NCBI RefSeq assembly: GCF_023498005.1
Contig: NZ_CP097289.1
Span: 5,146,001 to 5,210,000, forward strand
Length of the DNA: 64,000 nucleotides
From: Streptomyces durmitorensis
GTDB lineage: Bacteria > Actinomycetota > Actinomycetes > Streptomycetales > Streptomycetaceae
Direction: 5' to 3'
The notes beneath the pieces were generated by a model. The model was not told where the DNA came from. It saw only the letters and a list, made by a program, of their open reading frames with translations, and did no database searches. Within the stretch, counting starts at the first letter, position 1; the number at the start of each line of letters is the position of its first letter. This document shows, piece by piece, positions 17,679 through 23,252 of this stretch. The position numbers were made by a program, and so were the translations under genes.

Positions 17679-19691
17679 TCACCGGGTGAAGTTGAGGTAC
17701 TTCCAGGACCCGTGCGTCGTCGAGTTCACGTTGTCGCCCGACGTCCCGTTGACGTACGAAGCGCGCATCCGGGCGCGGATGCCCGACTCGCCGGGAGCCT
17801 CGACGCGCACGGCGGACGTGCCGTCGGCGCCGAGCCTGAAGTACTCGGACGCGCCCGCCGAGCGCCACCGGCCGTCCACGCGCACCTGCATCTCGAAGCG
17901 GTGCTTGCGGCCCTTGTAGTACGACATCGTCGTCTTCAGGACCGGGTCGGTGTTCTTGTGGAAGTAGTGGTACGTCGTCGAGCCGATCTTCCCCGTCTTG
18001 TAGTGCCCGGCGACCGACGCGGAGACCTTGACCTTGGCGTACGCCGTCGACGTGGCCTTCGTGGACGCGTAACGGGCGTCACCGGCGAAGACCGCGGTGA
18101 CCTTCGTGTCGCGCTTCATGTCGACGGTCGCCGACAGGTCGCCACGGGCGTTCACGGCGCCCTTCTTGACCAGCTTGTTGGGCTTGTCGGAGCCGTAGGG
18201 GTCGGCCCAGATCTCGACCGTGCGGTTCTTGTACGTGGTGCCGAGGTGCGCGGTGAAGGAGACGTCGGCGCCGTAGGAGTAGACGTTGCCGTTCTTGTTC
18301 AGCGTCAGCTTGGTCGCGCTCCGCGAGACCTCCACCGCGTCCGACCCGGAGGCCGCGGCGTGCGTGGCGTCGCCCGCGTACGCGACCTTGTACGCCACCT
18401 TGCCGCCGGCGGGCGGGGTGTCGTCGAAGGAGAAGGAGCCGTCCGCCTTGGTCTTCACCGCGGGCAGCTTCTTGCCGTTCGGGGTCTCGATGTCCGAGCG
18501 CGTGACGGTCAGTTCGGTCCCCGCGGGCAGCGCCGCCGCCGTGTCGGTGATCTTTCCGGAGACGGTGAGGGACTTGGCGCGCGTCCCCTTCTCGGGGGCC
18601 GCGACCGTGAGCTCTGGCAGCGACTTGTCCGGCTCGGTCAGGACCCGCAGGGAGAAGACGCCCTCGCTGTTCTCGGAGACTGCGAAGAGCCGGCTGCCGT
18701 CCGGCGCCCAGGCGAGGCCGCCCTCGGCCAGGGTGTCGGCGCCGCTGCTGTTGCCGGTGTTCGGGAACTCGTACTCCCGCACCTTGGACCACTTGCCCTG
18801 CTGGTAGATGTGCACGTCGGGCCCGTACCAGGAGGAGGTGCCCGCCGCCACGGTGCCGTCCGGGGCGATGTCCACGGCGGCGCCGTAGTCGCCGGAGTTG
18901 TAGCGGCCGATGGGGGACAGGTCCTCGGTGGAGTACACCGGGTGGTAGTACGGGGCGCCGCTGGCCGTGACGATCTGGGTCCCGTCGGGGGAGACCGCGA
19001 TGTCGTCGAAGAAGGCGCCGTCCACCGACTTGGTGACCTTCAGCTCCGGCTTCGGTCCCGACACGTCGTACACGGTCAGCTCGCCGGTGCTGATGTCCTT
19101 CTCGCCGGCCACCAGGACCCCGGAGTCGGGGTCGGAGCCGAGCTCGGGCGCGGCGTAGAAGCTCGCCTCGCCGTCCTGGCCGAGCGCGACGACGGGTTCG
19201 GCGCCGGAGAGGTCGAGCGAGCCGATGCCGCCCCCGCCGGACCCGTAGCCGAACCACAGCTTGCCGCTCGCCATCGCCAGGGTGCGCGGCTTCTCGGCGC
19301 CGTCCAGCTTGTAGCTCGCGCTCTGGGCGTACGAGGACGTGTCCACGGCGACGATGCGGTTGAGCCCGGCCACCGCCGCGTACACCTGCCCGGAGTCGGC
19401 CGAGAGGGCCAGGCCGTCGACGTCCGGCAGCCCGTCCAGGGTCGCCTTGACCGCGCCCGCGTAGTCCGTGACGACGATCTTGCCCTCGACCGGGTCGGAG
19501 ACGTAGACGCGCTGGTGGGCGCCGTCCACGAGGATGTCGGCCGCCGACTTCACGCCCAGGAGATGCGCCGAGTCGGCTGCCGCGGGTCCTGCCGTCGCGG
19601 CGACCAGGGCCGCGGAACTGAAGAGGACCGCGAGAGCTGTCGCGGTGGAAATGGTGCGTGTGCGTGTGCGTGTACGGCTGTGTGTGCGCAC
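17679..19691 (-). CDS. Secreted beta-propeller protein with Ig-like repeats
   Basis: 670 aa. The signal peptide (LAVLFSSAALVAATAGPAAA) is preceded by an Arg/Thr repeat made of GTGCGT-type codons. Residues about 45-320 form YVTN/YncE-like propeller blades (ILVDGAHQRVYVSDPVEGKI, LALSADSGQVYAAVAGLNRI, IAVSPDGTQIVTASG). The rest consists of Ig-like modules (LTVSGKITDTAAALPAGTEL, VAYKVAYAGDATHAAA, VTAVFAGDARYAST) of the kind found in surface adhesins. The domain at the extreme C-terminus (HGSWKYLNFTR) is unassigned. It is a probable extracellular or wall-associated protein; the ligand is unknown. GTG 19691 follows a run of six G about 9 bp upstream. Confidence 0.8.
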   Translation of the reverse strand: MRTHSRTRTRTRTISTATALAVLFSSAALVAATAGPAAADSAHLLGVKSAADILVDGAHQRVYVSDPVEGKIVVTDYAGAVKATLDGLPDVDGLALSADSGQVYAAVAGLNRIVAVDTSSYAQSASYKLDGAEKPRTLAMASGKLWFGYGSGGGGIGSLDLSGAEPVVALGQDGEASFYAAPELGSDPDSGVLVAGEKDISTGELTVYDVSGPKPELKVTKSVDGAFFDDIAVSPDGTQIVTASGAPYYHPVYSTEDLSPIGRYNSGDYGAAVDIAPDGTVAAGTSSWYGPDVHIYQQGKWSKVREYEFPNTGNSSGADTLAEGGLAWAPDGSRLFAVSENSEGVFSLRVLTEPDKSLPELTVAAPEKGTRAKSLTVSGKITDTAAALPAGTELTVTRSDIETPNGKKLPAVKTKADGSFSFDDTPPAGGKVAYKVAYAGDATHAAASGSDAVEVSRSATKLTLNKNGNVYSYGADVSFTAHLGTTYKNRTVEIWADPYGSDKPNKLVKKGAVNARGDLSATVDMKRDTKVTAVFAGDARYASTKATSTAYAKVKVSASVAGHYKTGKIGSTTYHYFHKNTDPVLKTTMSYYKGRKHRFEMQVRVDGRWRSAGASEYFRLGADGTSAVRVEAPGESGIRARMRASYVNGTSGDNVNSTTHGSWKYLNFTR

Positions 19692-19931
19692 GGTATGTGA
19701 CCCCCCACATAAGAAGAACCCAGGTCAGGCAACCTGGGCCTCGAACCCCCCGTTACGGCGCCATCACAATAAGGCATTGCTGTGAAGGTTGTGGAGAGAG
19801 TTTCGTGCGTGAGTTGTGGGGTGCGGGGGCGGCGCCGCGGGCCCGCCGAACGCGCGCGTGCGCCGTTGGTGCGCCCCTTCCCGGTGGGCATGGAACGGGC
19901 ATCAGGCAGTACGCCTTCGAGGAGGAGACCC

Positions 19932-20090
19932 ATGGCTGAGTCCCCGATGACCGAACCCGTCCCCGAGCAGCCGGCCGATACGCCCGGTCTGCCCGCCCTC
20001 GTGCTCCTCGGCGCCTGCGGCTGCGGCTCGGGCTGCGGCTGCGGCTGCCAGTCGGGCGGACCGTGCCAGTGCGGTGGCTGCTGCGGCTGA
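19932..20090 (+). CDS. 52-aa cysteine-rich mini-protein
   Basis: Short gene with a strong AGGAGGAG ribosome binding site 6 bp before the ATG. The first half is acidic and proline-rich (MAESPMTEPVPEQPADTPG), then a hydrophobic LPALVLLGA. The last 23 residues contain nine cysteines, mostly as CGC units, plus glycine, and the protein ends GGCCG. No known family is recognised. The composition suggests metal binding (metallothionein-like) or a modified-peptide precursor with a leader and a Cys/Gly core, but no maturation enzyme is adjacent. It lies between the propeller gene and phoU and is followed by a strong terminator. The RBS, start and compact length make it a credible gene despite its size. 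Confidence 0.65.
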   Translation: MAESPMTEPVPEQPADTPGLPALVLLGACGCGSGCGCGCQSGGPCQCGGCCG

Positions 20091-20150
20091 GGCATCTGGC
20101 GTGACGGGGTGTGCCCTGCCCCGCCGCGACGAGGTGTGCCCCGCCACGAA

Positions 20151-20185
20151 GGGTGTGCCCCGCACCGATGGTGCGGGGCACACCC
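20151..20185. terminator. Bidirectional terminator between the Cys-rich gene and phoU
   Basis: Perfect 16-bp stem (GGGTGTGCCCCGCACC with its complement at 20170-20185) and a 3-base loop. Two imperfect copies of the GGTGTGCCC unit stand upstream at about 20109 and 20133. Confidence 0.85.
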
Positions 20186-20214
20186 CTTCGCGCGCAGGCC
20201 GACCGCTGCCGGAC

Positions 20215-20895
20215 TCAGGCGCCCTCGACCGGCGTCCCAGCCGTCTGGATTTCGTCCGCGTGCTCGCCGGTGACCAGGTAGACGACCCTCTTCGCCACCG
20301 AGACCGCGTGGTCCGCGAAGCGCTCGTAGTAGCGGCCCAGGAGCGTCACGTCCACGGCCGTCTCGATGCCGTGCTTCCAGCGGTCGTCCATCAGGTGCTG
20401 GAAGAGCGTCCGGTGCAGCAGGTCCATCTCGTCGTCGTCCTGCTCCAGCTGGAGCGCCAGGTCGACGTCCTTCGTGATGATGACCTCCGCCGCCTTGGCC
20501 ATGAGGCGCTGCGCCAGCTGGCCCATCTCCAGGATCGTCGCGTGCAGGTCGTGCGGAACGGCCGACGCCGGAAAGCGCAGCCGGGCCAGCTTGGCGACGT
20601 GCTGGGCGAGGTCGCCCGAGCGCTCCAGGTCGGCGCTCATCCGCAGCGAGGTGACGACGATGCGCAGGTCGGTGGCGACCGGCTGCTGCCGCGCGAGCAG
20701 GGCTATCGCGCGCGCCTCCAGTTCGTGCTGGAGATCGTCGACCTTCTGGTCGGCGGCGATCACGCTCTCCGCCAGCTTCAGATCGGCGTCGAGCATGGCC
20801 GTCGTGGCGCGCCCGATCGCGGACCCGACCAGACGGGCCATCTCGACCAGGCCCTCGCCGATCGAGTCAAGTTCCTCGTGGTACGCGTCCCGCAT
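20215..20895 (-). CDS. phoU: Phosphate-signalling regulator PhoU
   Basis: 226-aa all-helical PhoU protein with two three-helix PhoU repeats: LVEMARLVGSAIGRATTAML with DDLQHELEARAIALLARQQP, and MGQLAQRLMAKAAEV with GRYYERFADHAVSVAKRVVY. The acidic metal-binding motifs (DLERSGD; YYERFADH) are intact. PhoU restrains the PhoR/PhoP system and links it to the Pst phosphate transporter at the membrane. ATG 20895 begins the conserved MRDAYHEELD. It is divergent from phoR, and the intergenic region carries two PHO-box-like arrays. Confidence 0.95.
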   Translation of the reverse strand: MRDAYHEELDSIGEGLVEMARLVGSAIGRATTAMLDADLKLAESVIAADQKVDDLQHELEARAIALLARQQPVATDLRIVVTSLRMSADLERSGDLAQHVAKLARLRFPASAVPHDLHATILEMGQLAQRLMAKAAEVIITKDVDLALQLEQDDDEMDLLHRTLFQHLMDDRWKHGIETAVDVTLLGRYYERFADHAVSVAKRVVYLVTGEHADEIQTAGTPVEGA

Positions 20896-20976: not shown

Positions 20977-21009
20977 CCCGAATGAACCACCCCTGTCACC
21001 GAGGTGAAC
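20977..21009 (-). promoter_or_regulatory. PHO-box-like direct repeats proximal to phoU
   Basis: On the minus strand GTTCACCTCGG (21009-20999), a weak 11-mer, and GTTCATTCGGG (20987-20977) form an array with 11-bp periodicity. This matches the PhoP operator unit of Streptomyces (GTTCA then three pyrimidines, purine, C/G, G). It lies about 80-115 bp upstream of phoU. Confidence 0.65.
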
Positions 21010-22438: not shown

Positions 22439-23115
22439 CCCGAGTGCTCGTCGTCGAGGACGAGGAATCCTTCAGCGACGCCCTGTCCTACATGCTCCGC
22501 AAAGAGGGCTTCGAGGTCGCCATCGCGGCCACCGGACCCGACGGACTCGACGAGTTCGAGCGCAACGGCGCCGACCTCGTCCTGCTCGACCTGATGCTGC
22601 CGGGCCTGCCCGGCACGGAGGTCTGCCGCCAGCTGCGCAGCCGTTCCAACGTCCCGGTGATCATGGTCACCGCCAAGGACAGCGAGATCGACAAGGTGGT
22701 CGGCCTGGAAATAGGAGCCGACGACTACGTCACGAAGCCCTTCTCGTCCCGCGAGCTCGTGGCCCGCATCCGCGCGGTCCTGCGCCGCCGGGGCGAGCCC
22801 GAGGAGGTCGCACCGCAGGCCCTGGAGGCAGGCCCGGTCCGCATGGACGTGGACCGCCACGTGGTGACGGTCTCCGGCTCCAAGGTCGACCTGCCCCTCA
22901 AGGAGTTCGACCTCCTGGAGATGCTCCTGCGCAACGCGGGCCGCGTCCTGACCCGCATGCAGCTCATCGACCGAGTCTGGGGCGCGGACTACGTGGGCGA
23001 CACCAAGACCCTCGACGTCCACGTCAAGCGCCTGCGCGCCAAGATCGAACCGGACCCGGGCGCGCCGCGCTACCTGGTGACGGTGCGGGGTCTGGGCTAC
23101 AAGTTCGAGCCGTAA
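22435..23115 (+). CDS. phoP: Phosphate response regulator PhoP
   Basis: 226-aa OmpR/PhoB-type regulator. The receiver domain has acidic residues E8-D9-E10, phospho-acceptor Asp 52 (VLLDLMLPG) and the switch Lys in DDYVTKPFSSREL. The C-terminal winged helix (DLPLKEFDLLEMLLRNAGRV, VDVHVKRLRAKIE-type recognition helix, YLVTVRGLGYKFEP) binds PHO boxes. In Streptomyces it controls phosphate scavenging and represses antibiotic production. It is translated from a GTG overlapping the phoR stop. A partial copy of its last 70 bases occurs 60 bp downstream. Confidence 0.95.
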   Translation: MTRVLVVEDEESFSDALSYMLRKEGFEVAIAATGPDGLDEFERNGADLVLLDLMLPGLPGTEVCRQLRSRSNVPVIMVTAKDSEIDKVVGLEIGADDYVTKPFSSRELVARIRAVLRRRGEPEEVAPQALEAGPVRMDVDRHVVTVSGSKVDLPLKEFDLLEMLLRNAGRVLTRMQLIDRVWGADYVGDTKTLDVHVKRLRAKIEPDPGAPRYLVTVRGLGYKFEP

Positions 23116-23173: not shown

Positions 23174-23252
23174 TCGAACCGGACCCGGGCGCGCCGCGCT
23201 ACCTGGTGACGGTGCGGGGTCTGGGGGTCTGGGCTACAAGTCCGAGCCGTAG
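23174..23252 (+). repeat. Vestigial duplicate of the phoP 3' end
   Basis: Bases 23174-23252 repeat the end of phoP (23045-23115) almost exactly: GAACCGGACCCGGGCGCGCC, then through the CTGGTGACGGTGCGGGG segment. After that come a small insertion (GGGTCTGG repeated), GGCTACAAG, one T-to-C change and a stop codon. A looser match (CGTCAAG) extends a few bases upstream. No start or RBS accompanies it, so it is non-coding. Confidence 0.9.

Follow-up and report, generated by a model that had tools for sequence, protein, structure and literature searches.

What kind of gene, if any, is the short, cysteine-dense reading frame that lies beside phoU in Streptomyces durmitorensis? We examined it within a 64,000-nucleotide stretch of contig NZ_CP097289.1 (positions 5,146,001 to 5,210,000), referred to below as the window. 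A preliminary description made from the letters alone had called its product undescribed and suggested either a metallothionein-like chelator or the precursor of a modified peptide, with possible links to phosphate. We found a conserved protein-coding gene that appears to be mtpA, a gene already known and of predicted function, and our comparison added a family definition, minimal versions, a bd-oxidase neighbourhood and a flipped clade that are new. The features of the locus are collected in Table 1.

Table 1. Positions of the features around the cysteine-rich gene, numbered from the first letter of the window
Feature	Position	Strand	Remarks
Upstream block 1, TGCGCCGTTGGTGCGCC, consensus TGCGCCGTTGATGCGCC	19859..19875	+	-35-like hexamer TTGATG, flanked by TGCGCC repeats spaced 11 nt
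Upstream block 2, GGGCATGGAACGGG, consensus GGGCATGCAATGGG	19886..19899	+	-10-like TGCAAT; column counts from the 73 loci with block 1
Ribosome-binding site, GAGGAGGAG	19919..19927	+	4 nt before ATG
mtpA-like gene	19932..20090, stop included	+	52 aa, nine Cys at residues 29-51
Perfect 16-bp hairpin	20151..20185		between convergent mtpA and phoU
phoU	20215..20895	-	same strand, upstream of the Cys gene in most relatives scored

A conserved cysteine core

The reading frame encodes MAESPMTEPVPEQPADTPGLPALVLLGACGCGSGCGCGCQSGGPCQCGGCCG. Nine cysteines had been placed in the last 23 residues; they do fill a stretch of 23, but G52 follows the last of them, so that strictly they lie within the last 24. 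Read in six frames, the whole window has 935 stop-to-stop segments that are 30 codons or longer; nine cysteines per 23 residues occurred in this one alone, the runner-up having six. The ribosome-binding site previously described ahead of the frame was recovered, and its GGAGG was kept in all 27 aligned sequences. When the 20-codon core was compared across 75 Streptomyces loci, pN/pS was 0.128 in the mtpA frame; the shifted frames gave 2.8 and 4.5, and the antisense value was 2.8. These loci comprised 70 stretches from distinct genomes and five named records (L063-L067), possibly of the same species as one of the 70; a further locus, L061, was missed by the codon pattern used for the 75-locus counts. 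The core is under strong purifying selection as a protein, and conservation of the frame in relatives, which the preliminary description had left to be looked for, was borne out, as was conservation of the cysteine spacing.

That spacing was defined from 23 aligned members gathered by genome scans alone (9 from Streptomyces, 11 from family f19 and 3 from family f3). The pattern CxC(x3)CxCxC(x5)CxC was invariant in all of them, with the glycines and the glutamine of the longer motif CxCGxxCxCGCQxGxxCxCG fixed as well, and the N-terminal leader was variable. S. coelicolor SCO4227, the named gene compared below, would be expected to carry the core CGCGSGCGCGCQSG. The sequence traits of metallothioneins are present: the protein is small and rich in cysteine and CxC motifs, and aromatic residues and histidine are few or absent. 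The window protein has none of either, and some relatives carry histidine in the leader. An AlphaFold2 model had a low mean pLDDT of 55.6 and no secondary structure, which is compatible with an apo thionein, though as weak evidence.

Curated resources had little to say about this family. Searches with the window protein gave no Pfam match, and no curated metallothionein family, at E 10, no match to solved structures at E 10 and none in phage and plasmid collections at E 1. One of the 23 members alone matched a Pfam metallothionein entry (PF02067, Metallothio_5, E 0.0015), and none matched NCBIfam.

Probable identity with mtpA, and relatives beyond Streptomyces

The gene is widespread in its genus. 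A first scan matched 46 of 61 genomes (42 of the 56 of good quality), and a genus sample gave matches at E 0.001 or better in 273 of 295 (267 of 288 of good quality). phoU was present in all of the first 30 loci fetched and in six of seven loci from named genomes, at least seven of which were obtained; the seventh, L061 from S. fildesensis, carries a relative of the gene and no phoU within its 7.6 kb. One stretch, L129, showed no such gene, though the genus sample reports a match, at an unlisted place, for the genome it comes from (G068).

Gene order was then compared between 163 listed mtpA-like places (150 from the genus sample and 13 from the first scan) and 150 listed phoU places; since 89 of the 163 had no phoU place among those listed, 74 genomes could be compared. 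In 73 of the 74 the cysteine gene was codirectional with phoU and came after it, the remaining one being the window, where the two converge. The gap was 101-616 bp in 72 of the 73 and 6,096 bp in one. On the other side, 60 of 79 genomes with both listed had a codirectional PF14026 (SCO4226-like) gene no more than 3 kb downstream, one PF14026 row under the family cut-off (G304:C3) being omitted, and in many Streptomyces it starts 114 bp or more after the cysteine gene. The best SCO4226-like match among the loci was 90.7%, and none of them was recognised as S. coelicolor itself; the protein from L093 matched PDB entries 4oi3 and 4oi6, 'Nickel responsive protein'. The same search found no PF14026 or SCO4226-like match in the genome of the window (G000).

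Because the order SCO4226 - SCO4227 - phoU (SCO4228) was matched, we took the gene as mtpA; on this synteny it appears to be SCO4227, and if so the word 'undescribed' does not hold. Ghorbel and colleagues are said to have dealt with mtpA of S. lividans and S. coelicolor in the Journal of Bacteriology in 2006 (188:677), and the gene was reportedly named by then. In the available part of PMC2267785, a table lists SCO4227 as 'Metallothionein protein (mtpA)' beside phoU, and it is counted among the phosphate-starvation genes affected in a study of afsS. Excerpts of PMC11019849 place mtpA directly downstream of phoU, transcribed from its own promoter and by read-through; in one Streptomyces strain Mg raised promoter activity and neither Mn nor Zn did, and the antibiotic phenotype under study did not require MtpA. 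A link to phosphate is thus supported by published expression data, as far as these texts go, but the role of PhoP is in conflict: PhoRP regulates SCO4226 and SCO4227 according to the accessible text of PMC4991794, whereas phosphate limitation raises mtpA independently of PhoP according to that of PMC3282765. In four further papers, as available, mtpA is named in a cited title alone (PMC7244524, PMC4415409, PMC6283541 and PMC6988585). The literature searched, much of it in partial text, reports no metal-binding measurement of MtpA, and a term search of the SCO4226 nickel-protein study found neither SCO4227, phoU nor metallothionein in its text. Within the window, part of the phoP 3′ end occurs a second time immediately past the stop codon, as an exact 52-bp direct repeat (23045-23096 and 23174-23225).

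Beyond the genus, a sample of the class matched in 43 of 345 genomes: 31 Streptomyces (of 33 listed), 11 of family f19 and one doubtful match in family f21 (L184), which was rejected as its frame was interrupted and the core motif absent. The 11 f19 proteins have 34-37 aa by the starts chosen, are almost the core alone and keep the seven cysteines. A wider scan of f19 matched 31 of 150 genomes, of which the weakest listed match (G741) was left aside and 30 loci were fetched; the core motif was present in 26 of these 30, and L217-L220, from which it was absent, were left out of the count. Upstream of the gene, on the same strand, 20 of the 26 loci had a match to cydB, encoding subunit II of cytochrome bd, and six had none; 18 of the matches were long and two were mere pieces of 53 and 31 residues (L201 and L209). 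Both bd subunits were seen upstream in seven of the first 11 loci when ORF tables were read by eye, and Pfam confirmed one such pair. This neighbourhood is new here, being absent from the literature searched, itself partly in excerpt. Another conserved gene, coding for about 115 aa, lies beside the short cysteine gene in 19 of the 26 loci (L195-L212 and L214), with or without cydAB; three members of it had no Pfam match and four no NCBIfam match.

In family f3, 10 of 14 genomes matched in the first scan, and the three loci read hold versions of 62-63 aa adjoining a thiolase gene (Pfam on L188). Near the thiolase and cysteine genes, L187 (3995-4837) and L189 (4041-4904) encode a protein with weak similarity to nitroimidazole reductases, assigned to Pyridox_ox_2 by Pfam in L187.

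DNA flanking the gene

Two conserved blocks were found upstream of the start codon. Block 1, searched as GCGCYGTTGVY, preceded the gene in 73 of the 75 loci, L022 and L029 being without it. With a stricter pattern it lay within 230 nt of the start in 72 of the 75, with one match elsewhere in the 256 kb that these loci total. In the genome of the window the mtpA site was the sole one with at most one mismatch; allowing three gave 76 sites against 99 for the reversed control, so that no regulon was visible. The distance from TTGATG in block 1 to TGCAAT in block 2 is 18 nt in the consensus and 19 nt in the window, and is nearly fixed across loci. This upstream DNA is probably the mtpA promoter; the two elements can be read as its -35 and -10, and the TGCGCC repeats might be the site of a regulator. 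A consensus sigma-70 scan gave no promoter in 19690-20300, and no PHO-box-like GGTGAAC or GTTCACC occurred in 19692-19931 upstream of mtpA. Two GGTGAAC sites of this kind lie at 21003 and 21099, between the divergent phoU and phoR.

The orientation of the gene helped to show which upstream DNA belongs to it. Convergence with phoU was found in five genomes: the window, S. atriruber (whose loci L062 and L135 are apparently one contig and were counted once), S. sp. NBC_01446 (L065), L127 and L131. In 76 other loci with both genes, a few of them second copies of one genome, they share a strand. Block 1 was flipped along with the gene in all five convergent loci, indicating that the block moves together with mtpA, independently of the phoU end. 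The five also have a common leader ending in LVLLGAC, which makes a single inversion in one clade likely.

Downstream, folding of 20088-20200 gave a z of -5.3. The perfect hairpin within it has no T run and was not reported by a consensus terminator scan; in each of the four remaining convergent loci a similar hairpin was seen by eye at the corresponding position. The preliminary description had given the gene its own terminator. A strong hairpin does follow it, but this is set between two convergent genes and is probably a two-way terminator common to mtpA and phoU. The sole terminator-like hairpin that the scan reported in 19690-20300 has a T-rich tail and lies at 19717-19740 on the minus strand, upstream of the gene at 17679-19691 of that strand.

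Proposed function and comparison with known systems

What the protein does was weighed against three other readings. It could be the precursor of a ribosomally made, modified peptide (RiPP), its acidic, proline-rich leader directing an enzyme encoded elsewhere to turn the Cys/Gly core into a thiazole, thioether or metal-chelating product; the two-part layout, with a hydrophobic LLGA ahead of the core, would fit such a scheme. In usual RiPP precursors the leader is conserved and the core more variable. Here the core is invariant, and leaders differ in both length and sequence and are all but missing from the 34-37-aa relatives, the reverse of that pattern, and no maturation enzyme was noticed by eye among the neighbours looked at in the window and the f19 and f3 loci. 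Because of this reversal the modified-peptide half of the earlier suggestion is not supported, and we regard it as highly improbable. A still smaller chance was given to a regulatory leader peptide, whose cysteine codons would attenuate a downstream gene when cysteine supply or translation changes, no working protein being made. Dense cysteine codons followed by a hairpin, and the codirectional SCO4226-like gene downstream in many Streptomyces, would fit such a device. The next gene downstream in the window, however, is phoU on the opposite strand, PF14026 was matched in 128 of the 295 Streptomyces genomes as against 273 for the cysteine gene, and the residues held invariant include glycine and glutamine as well as cysteine.

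The third reading, in which the protein buffers thiol redox state or assists oxidative-stress signalling near PhoU and binds metal only secondarily, seemed unlikely, if less remote. It draws on a review proposing, in the portion available, that PhoU and the mtpA metalloprotein may join in sensing or resisting oxidative stress (PMC7866108), and on the joint fall of SCO4226-SCO4230 under oxidative stress, dependent on HbpS-SenS-SenR, in the accessible text of PMC4991794. These observations are correlations only, and a drop in expression under oxidative stress is unlike the induction of a protective protein.

We favour, with fair though not high confidence, the reading of the gene as Streptomyces mtpA of the SCO4227 type, making a small, unmodified, cytosolic metallothionein-like protein. 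The metallothionein-like half of the preliminary description agrees with the published name, the invariant cysteine core and the variable leader; it sits less well with the lack of induction by Zn or Mn in the part of PMC11019849 available. MtpA most likely serves as a buffer built of thiolates; its ion may be Cu(I), and its role would be tied to a shortage of phosphate. Apo-MtpA would be unfolded, and its cysteine thiolates would wrap a d10 metal, Cu(I) in preference to Zn(II), and buffer the bound metal when phosphate is limiting or the cell is under redox stress, with the upstream block serving as promoter. Cu(I) is favoured because the core is rich in CxC, because the bd oxidase encoded near the short relatives is a copper-free enzyme (PMC8951039, as excerpted) and because of the reported lack of a Zn response; Zn or Ni may be the ion instead.

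Polyphosphate is itself a metal buffer and falls under phosphate shortage, when MtpA may take over metal buffering. A broader proposal, which we put forward as possible but doubtful, is that MtpA founds an actinobacterial metallothionein family handling Cu(I) when respiration changes or polyphosphate is lost: in Streptomyces mtpA would be expressed with the phosphate-starvation locus as polyphosphate runs down, and in family f19 the minimal version would be encoded together with the copper-free oxidase. A gene present in most good-quality Streptomyces genomes sampled, yet matching no curated family, now has a fixed cysteine pattern and a minimal natural version. A second genomic context, downstream of cytochrome bd genes, makes the label 'metallothionein' a concrete hypothesis about copper and respiration, and the flipped clade reveals which upstream DNA travels with mtpA.

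Among known systems, SCO4226 (PDB 4oi3 and 4oi6) resembles MtpA in being described as a metal binder, in its case of nickel, and is its neighbour in many Streptomyces; by the description in its abstract it is set apart as a ferredoxin-like protein of 82 residues, unlike MtpA. The closest likeness is to SCO4227 of S. coelicolor and S. lividans, also a gene beside phoU, whose other neighbour is SCO4226 and which is labelled, in the sources as available, a metallothionein or a predicted small metal-binding protein. The window gene differs in facing phoU and in belonging to a genome where no SCO4226-like gene was found, a matter of arrangement and not of a defining sequence feature. Plant type 1 and 2 metallothioneins contain a CGCGSGC-like stretch, and they, mycobacterial MymT and MtpA are all short and rich in CxC. 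MtpA would be distinguished from the plant types and MymT by the spacing CxC(x3)CxCxC(x5)CxC and by the fixed glutamine after its fifth cysteine.
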